From the IMG/VR virus record IMGVR_UViG_3300044835_000075, positions 1 to 64,000 of that record: 64,000 bases of DNA; one strand, written 5' to 3'. Shown here in pieces: positions 6,721-13,307 of this stretch. The translations under genes were made by a program, and so were the position numbers. Source of the stretch: a virus. The notes beneath the pieces are model-generated. The model worked only from the letters and a program-made list of their open reading frames with translations. It was not told the DNA's origin and did no database searches. Position 1 is the first letter of the stretch. Every line of letters begins with the position of its first letter.

Positions 6721-6999
6721 ATGAACGACACAGCGCTCGGCACGGAGATCACGGCCACGGCCGCGCGGATCCGCGCCCTGCTCGACCTCGACGCCAGCGG
6801 CACACCCGGGGATCTCCTCCCCGAGCTGGCCATCCTGGACGAGGCCGAACGGAACCTGCGTGTCGTCCGCGACTCAGTCCTTGTCCACGTCCGCAGACGC
6901 GGAAGCTCGTGGAACACGATCGAAGCCAGCACCGATGTACCCGCCACCACCTGGCGCGGCCGCTACGTACGACACACAGAGGAGACCAGCCGACCATGA
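6721..6999 (+). CDS. small HTH-like protein heading the transfer operon
   Basis: 92 residues, ATG 6721 with a weak GAGG upstream. Helical N-terminal half (ELAILDEAERNLRVVRDSVL) followed by SSWNTIEASTDVPATTWRGRY, which resembles a helix-turn-helix; similar short proteins precede SpdB/TraB genes on actinobacterial plasmids. Stop overlaps the next start (ATGA), so it is co-translated with the membrane protein. Possibly a regulator of transfer; this is inference from position. Confidence 0.65.
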   Translation: MNDTALGTEITATAARIRALLDLDASGTPGDLLPELAILDEAERNLRVVRDSVLVHVRRRGSSWNTIEASTDVPATTWRGRYVRHTEETSRP

Positions 7000-7892
7000 T
7001 CGCCCAGACGTCGCGCTCCCGACGTTGGAAGGCCCCCAAGACACCGAAGCCGCCCAAGACCCCGCGCGTCCGGCGCAAGCCGATCGCCGCGCTCAAGGGC
7101 AAGCTGACCCCCAAGCGGGCGACGCCGGTGCCGGTGGACCTCCGCAAGCGGGAACTGGTCGCGGTCACCGCGCTGGCCGCGCTGGCAGTGCTCTCCGTCG
7201 CCGCCATCGGGTTCGTAATTAGCTACTCCCACATGCACGATTGGGCCTTGGCGAACCACGAACCGGACTGGCGCGCGAAGCTCTTCCCCCTGTCCGTCGA
7301 TGGCGCGATCCTCGCCGCCACCCTCGTGCTCTACGCCGACTCACGCGCCGGTCGCAAGGCCGACAAGCTGGCGTACTTCATCACCGCGCTGGGCATCGCC
7401 TGGTCGGTCGGGGCGAACATCGGGCACACGTGGGTGAGCGCCGGTGCGGCCATGCTGATCGCGGGCTGGCCGCCGGTGGCGATGGCGCTCTCGGTCGAGC
7501 AGCTGCTCAAGTTCCTGCGCCGGTGGCGCGGGCAGGCCGACGCCGAGGTGCGCAAGGCCGCGAAGCAGCGGACCGACCGGCCCGCCGCCGAGCCGGACAC
7601 CGTCGAGGTCGCGCCGAAGCCGGTTCCCGCGCCGCGCCCGAAGCCGTCGGCACCGAAGCAGGCTGAGGTGATGGCGCCGCACGTGGTGCCGATGGAGGTG
7701 CCGAGCTGGGTGCCCACGATCCTCAAGGCTGGCGACGCGTGCCAGGCCTATCTCACCCAGGTCAATCCGGACGCCGAGGCGCCGGAAGTCGACCGCGAGG
7801 TCGGCAAGTACATCCGCATGTCGGATGGGTACGCCCGCCGCCAGGTGCGGGTATTCAACGAGGCCCGGCAGGCCGCCGGGCAGGGAGGGTAG
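6996..7892 (+). CDS. DUF2637/SpdB-like plasmid-spread membrane protein
   Basis: 298 residues. Pro/Lys-rich basic N-terminus (~50 residues), then four membrane segments: LVAVTALAALAVLSVAAIGF, LSVDGAILAATLVLY, YFITALGIAWSVGANIGH and AAMLIAGWPPVAMALSVEQL. This four-helix pattern with VDGAI and GWPPVA is typical of DUF2637, found in spread proteins and AICE/plasmid transfer loci. The C-terminal half is soluble, Pro/Ala-rich, and ends with a helical domain containing RMSDGYARRQVRVFNEA, probably a DNA-binding HTH. Coupled to the upstream HTH gene and followed by the TraB operon. Confidence 0.8.
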   Translation: MIAQTSRSRRWKAPKTPKPPKTPRVRRKPIAALKGKLTPKRATPVPVDLRKRELVAVTALAALAVLSVAAIGFVISYSHMHDWALANHEPDWRAKLFPLSVDGAILAATLVLYADSRAGRKADKLAYFITALGIAWSVGANIGHTWVSAGAAMLIAGWPPVAMALSVEQLLKFLRRWRGQADAEVRKAAKQRTDRPAAEPDTVEVAPKPVPAPRPKPSAPKQAEVMAPHVVPMEVPSWVPTILKAGDACQAYLTQVNPDAEAPEVDREVGKYIRMSDGYARRQVRVFNEARQAAGQGG

Positions 7893-7894
7893 TC

Positions 7895-8884
7895 ATGGCG
7901 AAGCGCAGGAAGACGCGGGCGAAGCCTCGCGGGAAGGCGAGGGCGCGGACGAAAGCCCCGTCTCGCCGGTCCGTTGACAGGGCGATCCGCAAAGTCACCG
8001 ACGACGGCGGAAGTACCCGCAAGCGCAAGCGGAACGGCAAGGCCCGCAAGCCCATGGGTGACCGCCTGTGGTGGCGAATCGCCAAGGGAACCTCGAAGGG
8101 CACCGTTCGCGGCATCGCGGTCGGCACCCCGAAGGCTGTCAACGGCGTCAAGGCGGCACACGCGAAGTTCAAGGACGGCCGGACGTTCGCAACGGCGTTC
8201 GACGACGAGTACGTGCCCGATTCCGGGGAGATCCCGCCCCGCAAGTTCTCCTGGAAGTCGACTTTCACGTGCTGCGGGCGCCGGTACAAGACGGTCGAGC
8301 ACCTCAATCGGCACCACCTGGCCGAGCACGACGGCGAGTCTCCCGAGGTCGCGGCGCGGGCCCTGCCGACGCTGCATATCTCGAAGACCGCGAAGACCCT
8401 GGACAAGCGGACGGTGACCCCTGTGGCGAACACGCCGACGGGTCGGCACCGGCCGAGCAGTTCGAAACCGAAGGCAACGTCGGTGGCCGACCTGGTCGCC
8501 AAGCACCGCGCCAAGATCACCGAGATCGGAAAGAAGGCAGTCATGGATAACGAGTCCGCGCGGCTGGTTCATAACGGGTTCCTGTCCCTGGACGCCGAGC
8601 GTCCCGGGCCGCTGAGTCACATCGAGGCGACGGCGCTGGGCTTCGAGCAGGCGTTCGCCGTCGGCTCGGAGTCGATCGCGAACTACCGGCGCAAGCTGAT
8701 TCAGGCCGGTTTCGACCCGGCTCACCTTCAGCACTACACGCGTGCCCAGGCGGACCTGGAGAGCGCGGCGACGCACATGTCGTCGGCCATCGCGACCATC
8801 AAGGACGAGATGCGCAGCGACATCGCGGCGGCGAAGGCGCGGCTCAACGGCGAGAAGCCGAACGACAAAACCCTCGCGAACTGA
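7895..8884 (+). CDS. basic C2H2-finger protein of the transfer operon
   Basis: 329 residues, ATG 7895 with GGGAGGG RBS. The first ~60 residues are extremely basic (KRRKTRAKPRGKARARTK). A single C2H2-like finger lies near residues 124-145: FTCCGRRYKTVEHLNRHHLA. The C-terminal half is helical with a coiled-coil-like end. Nothing enzymatic is visible. Its place between SpdB and TraB suggests a DNA- or membrane-associated accessory factor for transfer. Confidence 0.7.
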   Translation: MAKRRKTRAKPRGKARARTKAPSRRSVDRAIRKVTDDGGSTRKRKRNGKARKPMGDRLWWRIAKGTSKGTVRGIAVGTPKAVNGVKAAHAKFKDGRTFATAFDDEYVPDSGEIPPRKFSWKSTFTCCGRRYKTVEHLNRHHLAEHDGESPEVAARALPTLHISKTAKTLDKRTVTPVANTPTGRHRPSSSKPKATSVADLVAKHRAKITEIGKKAVMDNESARLVHNGFLSLDAERPGPLSHIEATALGFEQAFAVGSESIANYRRKLIQAGFDPAHLQHYTRAQADLESAATHMSSAIATIKDEMRSDIAAAKARLNGEKPNDKTLAN

Positions 8885-8914: not shown

Positions 8915-10969
8915 ATGTCCAAGCCCGAGATCAACTTGTGGGAGGTGCTCTACCGCAAGCGGCTCGGCCTCGGCCCCTTCTACGTCGGGGTCGGTGCCGC
9001 CGCGCTTGCGGGGCTCTCCTCCCTGCTCGGCGACGTCGAAACGATCATCGCCGTCGTGGCGGTAGCTCTCGCGCTCGGCGCTTGGGCACACACCCGCGTG
9101 AAGGACGGCCTGCGCCGTGGCTACGCCTTCACCGTCATCGGCTCGTCGGCGCTCTGGATCATCGTCGCCCACCTGTACTCGACCAGCCTGCTCTCCGCCC
9201 TGATCGTGGCGAACCTGTCCGCCACGCTCGTGCTGGGCATCGGCTGGTGGACCTCGCACCGCCAGCGTGCCCAGGTCCGCATGGCCGAGGCGCTCAAGGA
9301 CTGGCCGGAGCTGGTCAAGCGGATCAACTACGACAAGATCCCCGCGCCGGGTGTCACCATCTCCCCCATCGGCTACGGCGGCAAGCTCAAGTGGGCGCCG
9401 GGCGAGTACGACGTCGCCGACATCATCCGGGACAAGGGCAAGTTCGAGAACATGCTGGGCGCCGACCACGGCCAGATGCGGATGGAGCGCGACGGCAAGT
9501 CGACGAACTCGGTGAAGTTCCAGGTCATCACCAACGACCCGCACTCGCTGGCGCAGGACTGGGCGCCGCCGACGTCGGTCGTCCAGGCGACGGACCCGCT
9601 GGCGATCGGTCCGCGTGAGGACGGGATCGTCGCGACGATCCGCCGATTCGAGCGCAACTCCGGTGTCCGGCACGCCCTGATCGCGGGAGCCACGGAGTCG
9701 GGCAAGTCGAGCCTGGTCAACCTCATGGTCGCCACGGACGTCTGCTCGGATGAGGTGTTCCAGATCGGGTTCGACTTCAAGCAGGTCGAGTTGACCCCGT
9801 GGGAGCGGGCGATGGGGTTCGTGATCACCAAGGTCCCCAGCGCTGTGGAGATGGTGCGCGGGTTCGCCGCGCCGGGCGGCTTGCTGGAGACGCGGGGCGA
9901 CATCCTCGCGGAGCGTGGCCGCCGGGAAGGCAAGGGTGTCCGGATATGGGACACGAAGAAAGACGGCCCGATCATTTCCATTGTCGTCGACGAGGCGAAG
10001 GATTTGCTTGGAACGACTGATTCCAAGACGGTTGATGCCTTTGCCTTGATCGCGACAAAGGGTCGCGCGCTGGGTGTCCGTTTCGTTATCGCTACGCAAT
10101 TCCCGACGCTTGAGGCTATCGGTTCTTCGCAGATCCGCCAGCAGGTCCGGCACCGGTTCTGCTTCCGGATGCAGGACTCGGCCGGGGAGAGCTTCGTGAT
10201 GCCGGGGCACCGCGTGCGGGCCGAGGCGATCGACGCGGAGCGCAAGGGCACGTGCTACATGCTCGACGGCGACCGGCTGGAGTCGATGCCGATCCGGGTC
10301 TACTGGATCGACGACGACATGGTCGCCGCCGTCGTCGCGGCCCGCGCGGGCCGGACGCCGGAACTCGACGCGCGCAGCGCCGAGGCGATCGAGCTGTACT
10401 TCCCGGATTTCGCGAACCGCATGGTGCGCATCCCGGAGCCGACCGGGACGAGTACCGGGACTGACGGCGGGACCGGGACCGGGACTAGTCCCGGGACTGA
10501 TGACGGCGGGACCGGGACTAGTCCCGGGACGACCGGGACCGACGTCGGGACTGTCCCGGCCGGTGATGAGGAGGGCGACGCGATGGCCGGGACTGGCGAC
10601 GAGTGGGTCGACTTGAACAAGGGCCCGCAGGTGGAGATCGAGGACGTCATGGCGTCCCGGGACTCGCACCTGACCGAAGAGGAGCGGGAGCGGCTGGAGC
10701 GGGACCGGCGGGTGGCGTTGGCCGAGGTCCCGGGACAGCGGTTGAACGAGGAGCAGGCCCGGGACGCGTTGATCCGGGCGCTGGAGGCGGCGGGACCGGA
10801 GGGCGCGAAGGCGAAGGATCTTCAGGTTGCGGCTGACCGCTCGTCGAGCTGGTTCTACAAGGTCGCGGCGCAGATGGCCGAGGACGGAATCGTGAAGCGG
10901 ACGACGCGAGGCAAGTGGATGATCCTCAAGCCGAAACTGTCGTTGGTGACTACCGCACCGAAGGGGTAG
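8915..10969 (+). CDS. FtsK/SpoIIIE-type conjugative DNA translocase (TraB-like)
   Basis: 684 residues, ATG 8915 with AAAGGAAG RBS. N-terminal ~120 residues hold three to four membrane segments. The motor has Walker A GATESGKSS (~residue 258) and Walker B ISIVVDEAKDL (~352). A Gly/Thr/Pro linker (~510-548) is written in DNA as repeated ACCGGGAC. A C-terminal winged helix (~617-675, AKDLQVAADRSSSWFYKVAA) matches the FtsK gamma/TraB DNA-reading domain. Streptomyces TraB proteins move double-stranded plasmid DNA between mycelial cells with no relaxase. Family is certain; a conjugative rather than packaging role is inferred from the SpdB neighbour. Confidence 0.88.
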   Translation: MSKPEINLWEVLYRKRLGLGPFYVGVGAAALAGLSSLLGDVETIIAVVAVALALGAWAHTRVKDGLRRGYAFTVIGSSALWIIVAHLYSTSLLSALIVANLSATLVLGIGWWTSHRQRAQVRMAEALKDWPELVKRINYDKIPAPGVTISPIGYGGKLKWAPGEYDVADIIRDKGKFENMLGADHGQMRMERDGKSTNSVKFQVITNDPHSLAQDWAPPTSVVQATDPLAIGPREDGIVATIRRFERNSGVRHALIAGATESGKSSLVNLMVATDVCSDEVFQIGFDFKQVELTPWERAMGFVITKVPSAVEMVRGFAAPGGLLETRGDILAERGRREGKGVRIWDTKKDGPIISIVVDEAKDLLGTTDSKTVDAFALIATKGRALGVRFVIATQFPTLEAIGSSQIRQQVRHRFCFRMQDSAGESFVMPGHRVRAEAIDAERKGTCYMLDGDRLESMPIRVYWIDDDMVAAVVAARAGRTPELDARSAEAIELYFPDFANRMVRIPEPTGTSTGTDGGTGTGTSPGTDDGGTGTSPGTTGTDVGTVPAGDEEGDAMAGTGDEWVDLNKGPQVEIEDVMASRDSHLTEEERERLERDRRVALAEVPGQRLNEEQARDALIRALEAAGPEGAKAKDLQVAADRSSSWFYKVAAQMAEDGIVKRTTRGKWMILKPKLSLVTTAPKG
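10442..10539 (+). repeat. ACCGGGAC octamer cluster within traB-like gene
   Basis: Six copies of ACCGGGAC at 10442, 10454, 10472, 10478, 10511 and 10532, interleaved with ACTAGT-centred CCGGGACTAGTCCCGG palindromes. They encode the Gly-Thr linker. The reverse complement GTCCCGGT resembles the 8-bp TraB recognition sequence of Streptomyces plasmid pSVH1 (GACCCGGA, from memory). Confidence 0.6.
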
Positions 10970-10987
10970 TCGGAGAAGGTTCTACCG

Positions 10988-11020
10988 CGCGGGGTGAGCG
11001 AGTTCGATGCTCACCCCGCG
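10988..11020 (+). terminator. perfect 12-bp hairpin after traB-like gene
   Basis: CGCGGGGTGAGC / GCTCACCCCGCG with a 9-nt loop, 18 bp after the stop; lacks a long U tract. Confidence 0.65.
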
Positions 11021-11022
11021 TA

Positions 11023-11168
11023 ATCGTCCAGTGGACAAACTCGATCGTCCACCGGCCTCGAAATGTCCGTTTTCCATCGTCCAGTGGACAGTGGAAAGTG
11101 ATCGTTTACCTGTAATAACTCCCCCAGCCCCCTCGCTCGCGGGACAGTGGACGATCTGATCGTCCACT
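11023..11168. repeat. iteron-like GTCCAGTGGAC repeats
   Basis: ATCGTCCAGTGGAC at 11023-11036 and 11076-11089, ATCGTCCACC at 11044-11053, and a perfect 11-bp-arm palindrome at 11146-11168 (AGTGGACGATC-T-GATCGTCCACT). The spacing and palindromic core suit a replication/partition iteron array or a multi-site operator. The region is noncoding. Confidence 0.55.
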
Positions 11169-11169
11169 C

Positions 11170-11550
11170 TCACGCTCCGTGAGGCATTGCGCCCGGCTGT
11201 TCACTGTGAGCGCCGGGCGTTTCCGTGCCCGGGAGCGGACGTCTCGGGTGCCGCGCCCGCCACGCGACGCCACGAACGACGTACGCGGCGTGGCTGTCGG
11301 AAAATCCATGCTTCGGCTCGGCGTCGCTCGGTTCGGCGGGCGGCATCTCGGGAAGTCGGCCGGGGTAGCTCGCGGCGGGGTACCCGGCGTCGCGGAGCAA
11401 CTCGTCGAGCACGTCGTAGAGCGGGTCTCCGGCGTCAACCCAGAGGTGACGGTCAGTGGTCCCGCCGTTGGCGATGTAGCGGATCCGTCCCGCCTCGCCC
11501 CGGCGACGCCAGGCGTTGCGGATGACGGGTGTCCCGGTCAGTGCGGGCAT
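11170..11550 (-). CDS. unknown 126-residue protein of plasmid-like block
   Basis: ATG 11550 with AGGAAGG RBS. Contains RIRYIANGGTTDRHLWVDAG and YDVLDELLRDAGYPAASYPG; soluble, with a basic, probably disordered C-terminus. It is translated after the 11685-12044 membrane gene across a 134-bp spacer packed with octamer repeats. No family recognised; possibly an accessory spread or replication protein. Confidence 0.6.
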   Translation of the reverse strand: MPALTGTPVIRNAWRRRGEAGRIRYIANGGTTDRHLWVDAGDPLYDVLDELLRDAGYPAASYPGRLPEMPPAEPSDAEPKHGFSDSHAAYVVRGVAWRARHPRRPLPGTETPGAHSEQPGAMPHGA

Positions 11551-11840
11551 CGGGTGGTCCTTCCTGTCCCGGTGGTCCCGGGACTTCTCTGAGCTGGGAT
11601 TCCATGATGTCCCGGGACTGGTCCCGGTGGTTGTCCCGGTCTGGTCCCGGTGTCCCGGGACCGAGTCCCGGGACTTGTCCCGGTCTAGTCCCGGGTGGAG
11701 TCCCGGGACTGCGGGGGCGGGGTGAAGGTCCCGGGTGCGTCGGGGATGAACGCACCGGGATCGGGGTTGTCGGTGTCGATCTCGATGTCCCGGTCGTCCC
11801 GGTAGGACGTCCCGGTCCCGGTCCCGGGACTAGTCCCGGT
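11531..11840 (-). repeat. dense GTCCCGG(T/G) octamer cluster, candidate clt/TRS
   Basis: About 18 copies on the plus strand of GTCCCGGT or GTCCCGGG, for example at 11566, 11575, 11609, 11621, 11633, 11644, 11652, 11665, 11677, 11688, 11700, 11787, 11796, 11809, 11815 and 11833. The densest part (11551-11684) is noncoding. Orientation is opposite to the cluster inside the TraB-like gene. Directly repeated 8-mers beside a traB gene are the known form of the Streptomyces clt locus. Confidence 0.6.
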
Positions 11841-12044
11841 ACTCGGCTCGTCGGTGGAGGAGGCGAGGAACCATCCCCAGAGGACGAGGGCGAGTCCGGC
11901 GAAGAGGCTGAGCGACCAGGGACCGAATACGACGATGAAGGTGGCGACGATGGCGAGGGAGCCGAGGGCGGCGAGGGCGATGCCGGTCAGTTCGATGCGG
12001 CGGCGGCGCGCTTCGATGGCCCGTCGGTGCTGGGGTTCGGTCAT
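11685..12044 (-). CDS. two-helix membrane protein with Gly-Thr tail (Spd-like)
   Basis: 119 residues from ATG 12044 (MTEPQHRRAIEARRRRI). Two membrane helices follow: LTGIALAALGSLAIVATFIV and LSLFAGLALVLWGWFLA. The tail GTSPGTGTGTS is encoded by the octamer repeats, as in the TraB-like protein. Small hydrophobic proteins beside traB are usually Spd spread proteins; that role is inferred. Confidence 0.62.
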   Translation of the reverse strand: MTEPQHRRAIEARRRRIELTGIALAALGSLAIVATFIVVFGPWSLSLFAGLALVLWGWFLASSTDEPSTGTSPGTGTGTSYRDDRDIEIDTDNPDPGAFIPDAPGTFTPPPQSRDSTRD

Positions 12045-12449: not shown

Positions 12450-13307
12450 ATGATGGGACACGACCACGCCCGGTCAGGAGTACCGGCCGCCTGCGTCGCC
12501 GTACTGGTGGCGCGCGCGTTCGGCGAGGATCTGTCGGTGTTCATGATCGCGCTCAGCATCGTGCTCACCTGCGGCGCCGCACTGCTGCCCGATCTCGACC
12601 ACCCGTCCGCCACGGCCGCCCACACGTTCGGCCCGATCACGCGCGGCATCGCCGAGGTGCTCAACGGGTTCGGCGAATGGCTGTACTACCGGACGCGGTC
12701 GAACGCGGACAAGCCGCACATCAAGGACGGGCACCGGACGTTCAGCCACACCGTCGTCTTCGCTCTCCTGGCGGGGGTTTTCGTGGCCCTGGCTTGCTCT
12801 CTCGGCGGCAAATGGGCGCTTCTGGTGACCCTGTTCATCCTGGCGTCGCTGGCCCTGCGCGGCGCGGCAGGGCACCACGGGCACGGCCGACGGCGGCACC
12901 GTCTTCTGCCGCGTCTTCCACGCGGCCCGATCGGCATTTCGTTCGCCGCCGCCGCACTGAGCGCGGCCGCGTACTTCCTCATGCCGACCACGGTCAACGG
13001 CGTGTTCATCGGCATCTGCGTCGCGGTCGGCTGCATCACGCACGACCTCGGGGACGCGTGCACCCTGTACGGCGATCCGCTGTTCTGGCCGCTCCCGATC
13101 AAGGGGCAGCGCTGGTACCTGGTCGGCACGCCGCGTGCTCTTCGGTTCCGCACCGGCAACGGGCCGGAGCACGTCGGCGAGCGGCGGTTCCGGGTGCTGC
13201 TCAACATCGTCACGGTGATCCTGCTCGTGACGCTGGCGCCGGGGTCGTGGACGTGGCTGTTCGAGGTGGGGCAGCGCGGTTGGTCGACGGTTGTGGCGTT
13301 GGTCTAG
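12450..13307 (+). CDS. YdjM-type (PF04307) membrane metal-dependent hydrolase
   Basis: 285 residues, ATG 12450 with GAGGAGGAACTC RBS. Signature motifs DLDHP (~residue 50) and HRTFSHT (~93-99) bind metal in the YdjM/DUF457 family. Membrane segments occupy most of the rest, e.g. VVFALLAGVFVALACSL and FAAAALSAAAYFLMPTT, with ITHDLGDA later. The family's biochemical role is poorly defined; phage copies are common. Ends at a bidirectional terminator facing 13417. Confidence 0.75.
   Translation: MMGHDHARSGVPAACVAVLVARAFGEDLSVFMIALSIVLTCGAALLPDLDHPSATAAHTFGPITRGIAEVLNGFGEWLYYRTRSNADKPHIKDGHRTFSHTVVFALLAGVFVALACSLGGKWALLVTLFILASLALRGAAGHHGHGRRRHRLLPRLPRGPIGISFAAAALSAAAYFLMPTTVNGVFIGICVAVGCITHDLGDACTLYGDPLFWPLPIKGQRWYLVGTPRALRFRTGNGPEHVGERRFRVLLNIVTVILLVTLAPGSWTWLFEVGQRGWSTVVALV

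Follow-up and report, generated by a model that had tools for sequence, protein, structure and literature searches.

What reads the short repeats that are packed into the 3' part of a traB-like gene in a phage genome, and again on the far side of the gene's end? To our knowledge, few guide sequences of TraB or FtsK motors have been described, and how such a motor selects DNA without a nicking enzyme is poorly understood. The literature searched, which lay mostly outside subscription journals, contained no account of arrays of this kind in phages. The DNA analysed here (the window) is a stretch of 64,000 nucleotides, positions 1 to 64,000 of IMG/VR virus record IMGVR_UViG_3300044835_000075, which has 107,374 bp and was used as a whole for the counts of CCGGGAC.

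The initial annotation had proposed two opposed clusters of candidate TraB recognition sequences, with six copies of the octamer ACCGGGAC in the traB-like gene and about 18 copies of its complement, GTCCCGG(T/G), at 11531-11840. These counts were reproduced. The window contained 18 exact matches of ACCGGGAC against a mean of 5.6 in dinucleotide shuffles, of which 0 of 100 reached 18. Six matches lay on the plus strand at 10442-10539, 11 on the minus strand at 11531-11840, and one elsewhere, while GTCCCGG(T/G) occurred 19 times (11 with T, 8 with G) on the plus strand in 11500-11850. The octamer is thus not equally dense across the window, 17 of its 18 copies being in the clusters. As the unit, it was replaced by CCGGGAC and then by CGGGA, the core that is common to the relatives described below. 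CCGGGAC was counted 72 times over the full record; 42 copies fell in 10430-10770 and 11500-11850 (692 bp) and 30 in the remaining ~106.7 kb, which makes the clusters roughly 200-fold denser. No other 7-mer or 8-mer cluster approaching this density was found in the whole record. The 10-bp palindrome GTCCCGGGAC was present in 10 copies in the record, all of them inside the two clusters.

The left array (10442-10765, plus strand) lies in linker codons of TraB and contains 12 CCGGGAC on the plus strand and five on the minus strand. The right array consists of a spacer (11551-11684, minus strand), with nine copies on the minus strand, which is the transcribed sense, and four on the plus strand, and of a coding part that is the tail of the gene g11 (11685-11840, minus strand). 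The spacer of 134 bp is bounded by the end of g11 at 11685 and the start of g10 at 11550, and is noncoding, as had been supposed. One further copy, at 11531-11538, is in the start region of g10 (11170-11550, minus strand, 126 aa), for which no family match was found. Helical phasing of the copies was weak, with a best combined period of 11.1 bp and 6 of 1000 random placements equally strong, and cumulative GC skew gave no pointer to the locus. A repeat family spread over host genomes was also considered and rejected: the exact tandem palindrome pattern was found in only eight stretches of genome contigs, which is about our rough estimate for chance, so nothing pointed to a genome-wide element.

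The clusters look as if they were kept for the DNA itself and not for the encoded protein. In TraB, CCGGGAC falls in three reading frames (encoding TGT/PGT, SRD/ARD and VPG), and in g11 in two. The repeats had been described as doubling as Gly-Thr linker codons, which is true of some copies, but others encode SRD, VPG, ARD, YRD or DRD. When codons were replaced by synonymous ones according to the phage's own codon usage, the 18 CCGGGAC of the whole traB gene compared with a mean of 2.2 and were reached in 0 of 5000 randomizations; under the synonymous-codon null, the 11 copies of g11 (both strands) compared with a mean of 1.3 (0/5000). In the spacer, the nine sense copies compared with a mean of 0.26 in dinucleotide shuffles (0/2000). 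No copies with one or two mismatches were present on the sense strand of the spacer, and the letters flanking the exact copies were close to random. In the arrays a DNA signal has apparently shaped protein linkers, which is unusual.

The gene that contains the left array, g9 (8915-10969, plus strand, 684 aa), encodes an FtsK/SpoIIIE motor with an N-terminal membrane part, seen by inspection. The motor domain matched PF01580 with an E-value of 1.9e-8 and 34.5 bits against a gathering score of 24, and the PDB profile matches of g9 were FtsK/SpoIIIE-type motors. Residues 41-675 aligned to positions 36-636 of the 639 of the plasmid TraB model NF041214, but with 102.5 bits, under the curated cut-off of 800. 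Because the match is near full length but far under the cut-off, we named the protein TraB-like; judged by sequence, it is a distant homologue of plasmid TraB and not a member by NF041214.

A winged helix following a flexible linker is predicted at the C-terminus of TraB, at residues about 612-670 (codons 10748-10924, plus strand), in agreement with the earlier placement at about 610-684. Its recognition-helix region reads RSSSWFY. AlphaFold2, run with four sequences, gave pLDDT of 81-90 for the winged-helix core blocks. For the last 86 residues, helices were predicted at 14-31, 35-42 and 46-58 together with a two-strand wing, and in the numbering of this fragment R44 and S46-Y50 are invariant across the clade. 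By structural comparison the model was similar to many winged-helix chains (Z 8-10). FtsK gamma (2ve8) ranked 32nd, with E 0.042, in the structure search with the first model, which returned no match at E <= 0.001, and was absent among the 50 entries listed in the VIA-align table; many regulators match the model better than FtsK gamma does.

The rest of the cassette (6721-8884, plus strand) comprises g6 (92 aa), g7 (298 aa) and g8 (329 aa). A longer ORF of g7 matched PF10935 (DUF2637) with an E-value of 9.6e-17, and no Pfam family match was found for g6 and g8. On the opposite side of the repeats, g11 (11685-12044, minus strand, 119 aa) has two hydrophobic segments by inspection, and its relatives have in common a DP-D/E-A-IP-like C-terminal end after the linker. 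A gene for a YdjM-like membrane protein comes after g11 in the window (12450-13307), and a gene that starts with MM(G/A)xGHA and is similar to it by inspection follows in the relatives L027, L144 and L145. Portal, MuF-like and protease genes are found upstream of the cassette on the other strand, and terminase, Baseplate_J and Tail_P2_I proteins are encoded elsewhere in the record, which makes this a tailed phage. Among named records, related portal and FtsK proteins occur in Streptomyces phage Gilgamesh and in Streptomyces plasmids of 125-132 kb with phage genes.

The relatives (L026/L027, L144 and L145) were obtained by profile searches of viral contigs; single-protein searches with TraB and portal against genome and viral contigs returned none, and a third profile scan added none beyond these. 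L026 differs from L027 at two positions over 7,595 bp and ends before the right array, and it was left out of the lineage counts. L146/L147, which are the same records as L026/L027, and L148, which has the N-terminal end of TraB only, were dropped before counting. TraB of L027, L144 and L145 is about 46-48% identical to that of the window; L027 and L145, whose TraB proteins share 74% identity, were counted as one lineage, which gives three lineages in all.

In L027, L144 and L145, sense-strand copies of CGGGA are present in the TraB linker, and a second set is present in the opposite-strand g11 homologue and in the spacer after it. The letters around the core are lineage-specific (CCGGGAC in the window, CGGGAAC in L144, mainly [G/A]CGGGA[A/G] in L027 and L145), and both arrays of one genome use the same ones, suggesting either one reader that acts on both or conversion between them. 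In L027, the synonymous-codon null reached the observed count in 0 of 5000 for GCGGGA in the linker, 0 of 5000 for CGGGA in g11 and 1 of 5000 for CGGGA in the linker, and shuffles reached that of CGGGA in the spacer in 0 of 2000; CGGGAA alone was unexceptional in the linker (278/5000). In the L144 record (101 kb), 12 of the 25 copies of CGGGAACG lie in the two arrays, whereas GCGGGAA is less specific, with 27 copies and an equal number of control matches in the record.

Alignment of L027 with L145 showed that the core columns are identical at a fraction of 0.89 in the spacer (0.52 outside the core), 0.95 in g11 (0.65 outside) and 0.96 in the TraB linker (0.78 outside). Because an aligner may favour the motif, all five-mers were run in the same way. 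CGGGA, which had been chosen before this test, was the best preserved of the 22 five-mers seen at least 10 times, with 52 of 64 copies intact against a median of 0.38. When 88 loci were examined, the five with an in-frame SSWFY helix also ranked highest in CGGGA density (27, 23, 22, 13 and 12 copies; the next had 9). L026 repeats L027 in this comparison, and an SSWFH match of L083, in a frame with stops, was not counted. As the five loci belong to one clade, common ancestry explains the co-occurrence of helix and array as well. Five Streptomyces phage or phage-plasmid loci (L011-L013, L024 and L025) have no such arrays at their FtsK genes.

The repeats might have no function, being GC-rich linkers and a spacer that grew by slippage or gene conversion, with both arrays of a genome homogenised. 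Tandem Repeats Finder gives period-12 and other units at the arrays, and stretches of 20-23 bp are common to the left and right arrays in the window and in L144, so that conversion between arrays is possible; similar words are also found in Pro/Gly-rich linkers of two unrelated viral contigs. Such growth, however, does not readily explain the exactness of the nine spacer copies amid near-random flanks, the preservation of the core between diverged relatives, or the same layout in three lineages whose TraB proteins are about 48% identical, and we consider this origin unlikely.

Sense:antisense counts were 36:13 in the window, 26:6 in L027, 18:4 in L144 and 25:8 in L145, and because traB and g11 converge, their sense arrays are directed at one another, which is the KOPS-like element of the initial proposal. 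The opposed orientation claimed at first thus holds for the non-palindromic copies, but not for the palindromic ones, which read both ways. Array orientation follows transcription in every case, so DNA polarity is inseparable from transcription in these data, and the opposed layout may be a by-product of the convergent genes; the polarity of the arrays may not concern DNA. The sense-strand bias of all arrays would also suit a word that acts in RNA, where the traB and g11 transcripts would carry it as a sense motif or hairpin for a binding protein, attenuation or stability. Predicted folding is strong in the spacer (z -5.2) and linker (z -8.0) of the window, and the spacers of L027 and L145 gave z -3.8 and -3.5, but the spacer of L144 folds in an ordinary way (z +0.15), as do the linkers of L027 and L144 (z +0.6 and +1.0). 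As stable folding is confined to part of the arrays, RNA hairpins are unsupported as a conserved feature, and a role in RNA seems very improbable.

We tentatively favour, with a little less than even confidence, the explanation that the arrays are DNA-level sites to which a transfer-cassette protein binds, TraB with its C-terminal winged helix being the likeliest, for loading or steering the motor. We infer all three parts of this explanation: that a protein binds, that TraB is the binder, and that loading or steering is the outcome. In the proposed mechanism, the binding unit would be a polar core, CGGGA (within CCGGGAC in this phage), in both arrays, which point at each other across a repeat block directly after traB. 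A trans-acting cassette protein, most probably TraB, would bind both arrays with its winged helix, and the arrays would serve to load the hexameric double-stranded-DNA motor onto the phage genome or to give it a direction there, a role modelled on clt/TRS of Streptomyces plasmids and on KOPS/SRS of FtsK/SpoIIIE. The idea that these are TraB recognition arrays gained from the locus-specific excess at the DNA level and its conservation beside a TraB with a predicted winged helix. It lost its link to the exact TRS: GACCCGGA, the pSVH1 TRS in the letters given by the initial annotation, occurs 13 times in the record but never in the clusters, and the resemblance of the octamer to it is loose, the conserved core being CGGGA. 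If TraB reads the arrays, three lineages with differing flanks and a near-identical helix would be a natural set for deriving a recognition code, and plasmid-style transfer of double-stranded DNA would be placed inside tailed phages.

A fuller form of the TraB explanation is possible but doubtful. The locus would be a two-sided docking array, half of it in the motor's own linker codons and half in the gene of a small membrane protein and its spacer, in which the word changes in step at both sites in each lineage while neither CGGGA nor the reading helix varies. In a clade of tailed phages of actinobacterial type, the motor would grip the phage genome from the two flanks of a clt-like locus and transport it, as double-stranded DNA, from one cell or compartment to another.

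Binding by a different protein, such as a Rep protein on iterons at an origin, a partition protein, or g6 or g8 as a regulator or stability factor, is a less probable but real alternative. Two reports lend it some ground: the RepA-bound iterons of pWTY27, GTGGGAAC and TTCCCAC, are one base from GCGGGAAC of L027 and L144 (PMC3583192), and SpdA2 of pIJ101 binds a palindrome within its own gene (PMC4170104). The right arrays contain inverted pairs, TCCCG-N-CGGGA, which suit a dimeric binder, and three of the four g8 homologues have a CX2C...H...H pattern by inspection. No Rep or Par gene, however, was identified among the proteins scanned, which were part of the record's genes; g6 and g8 lack a Pfam family match, and the 3' part of traB is in every case flanked by the arrays, one of which lies inside it. 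Rep iterons of theta plasmids such as pWTY27 resemble the arrays as direct and inverted short repeats with similar letters, but no Rep gene was found beside the arrays, many copies of which are inside traB and g11.

If TraB is the reader, the block between the left and right arrays also has to be weighed. These noncoding repeats directly 3' of traB (10970-11169) comprise a perfect hairpin (10988-11020), five copies of ATCGTCCA and a box around CTCCCCCAGCCCCC, and are a clt-like candidate. Five of the eight copies of ATCGTCCA in the record are in this block. All four phages have GTCCA repeats and the CTCCCCCAGCCCCC box after traB, at 6942-7110 in L027, 8002-8200 in L144 and 7984-8145 in L145. 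In L144, 10 copies of ACCGTCCA are packed into 400 bp. The clt of pWTY27 takes in the final 16 bp of traA and the 159 bp that follow (PMC3583192). The left array and the block both lie at the 3' end of a tra gene or directly after it; by analogy of position, the block is the better candidate for a classical clt, and the region of ATCGTCCA could be the real TraB site.

The arrays can be compared with several known systems. The clt/TRS loci of the Streptomyces plasmids pSVH1, pIJ101 and pJV1, and that of TraA of pWTY27, are likewise short repeats at a tra gene, and pSVH1 TraB reportedly reads its sites with a C-terminal winged helix (PMC3583192). The phage arrays differ in their word, with its CGGGA core, in forming two opposed arrays instead of one locus, in having one array deep in linker codons, and in belonging to a tailed phage; directly behind the phage traB, the noncoding locus bears other repeats. 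KOPS of FtsK (GGGNAGGG) and SRS of SpoIIIE (GAGAAGGG) are polar words, rich in G, by which a double-stranded-DNA motor is oriented (PMC2680272, PMC5869595). The phage word is G-rich and polar too, and the motors belong to the same superfamily, but KOPS/SRS are spread along chromosome arms, whereas the phage has two local dense arrays, and no dif-like recombination site was identified. As a candidate polar guide of the KOPS/SRS type, the word had a strand bias in four contigs, which coincided with the direction of transcription. The sps of SpdA from pIJ101, CGTCACGTGACG, is a palindrome in one to three copies (PMC4170104); it resembles the phage arrays in being a short palindromic word that lies both in genes and in noncoding DNA of a cassette for transfer or stability. 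Identity with sps had been considered because of the SRDD-type codons, and was ruled out since the clustered palindrome is GTCCCGGGAC.

Short repeated words were seen in other contigs too. The viral contigs L022 and L023, unrelated by their proteins, are enriched in GTCCCGG (with GTCCTGG in L022 and GGACCAG in L023), partly in Pro/Gly linkers. Dense, short palindromic words (CTGCCAG, CGGTACC, TGTACA) occur near FtsK-like genes of other phages, in L028 (3782-4087), L031 (3731-3989), L055 (3237-3412), L079 (2994-3124) and L072 (7037-7301). In the Streptomyces phage-plasmids L012 (8264-8313), L013 (8424-8622) and L024 (4266-4315), TCACGTCA is present three to four times, at the start of the FtsK gene or a short way upstream of it. 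L012, the MBT27 phage-plasmid, also has a cluster of AGCGGGA(T) at 1319-1625, away from its FtsK gene, with nine CGGGA in 350 bp.
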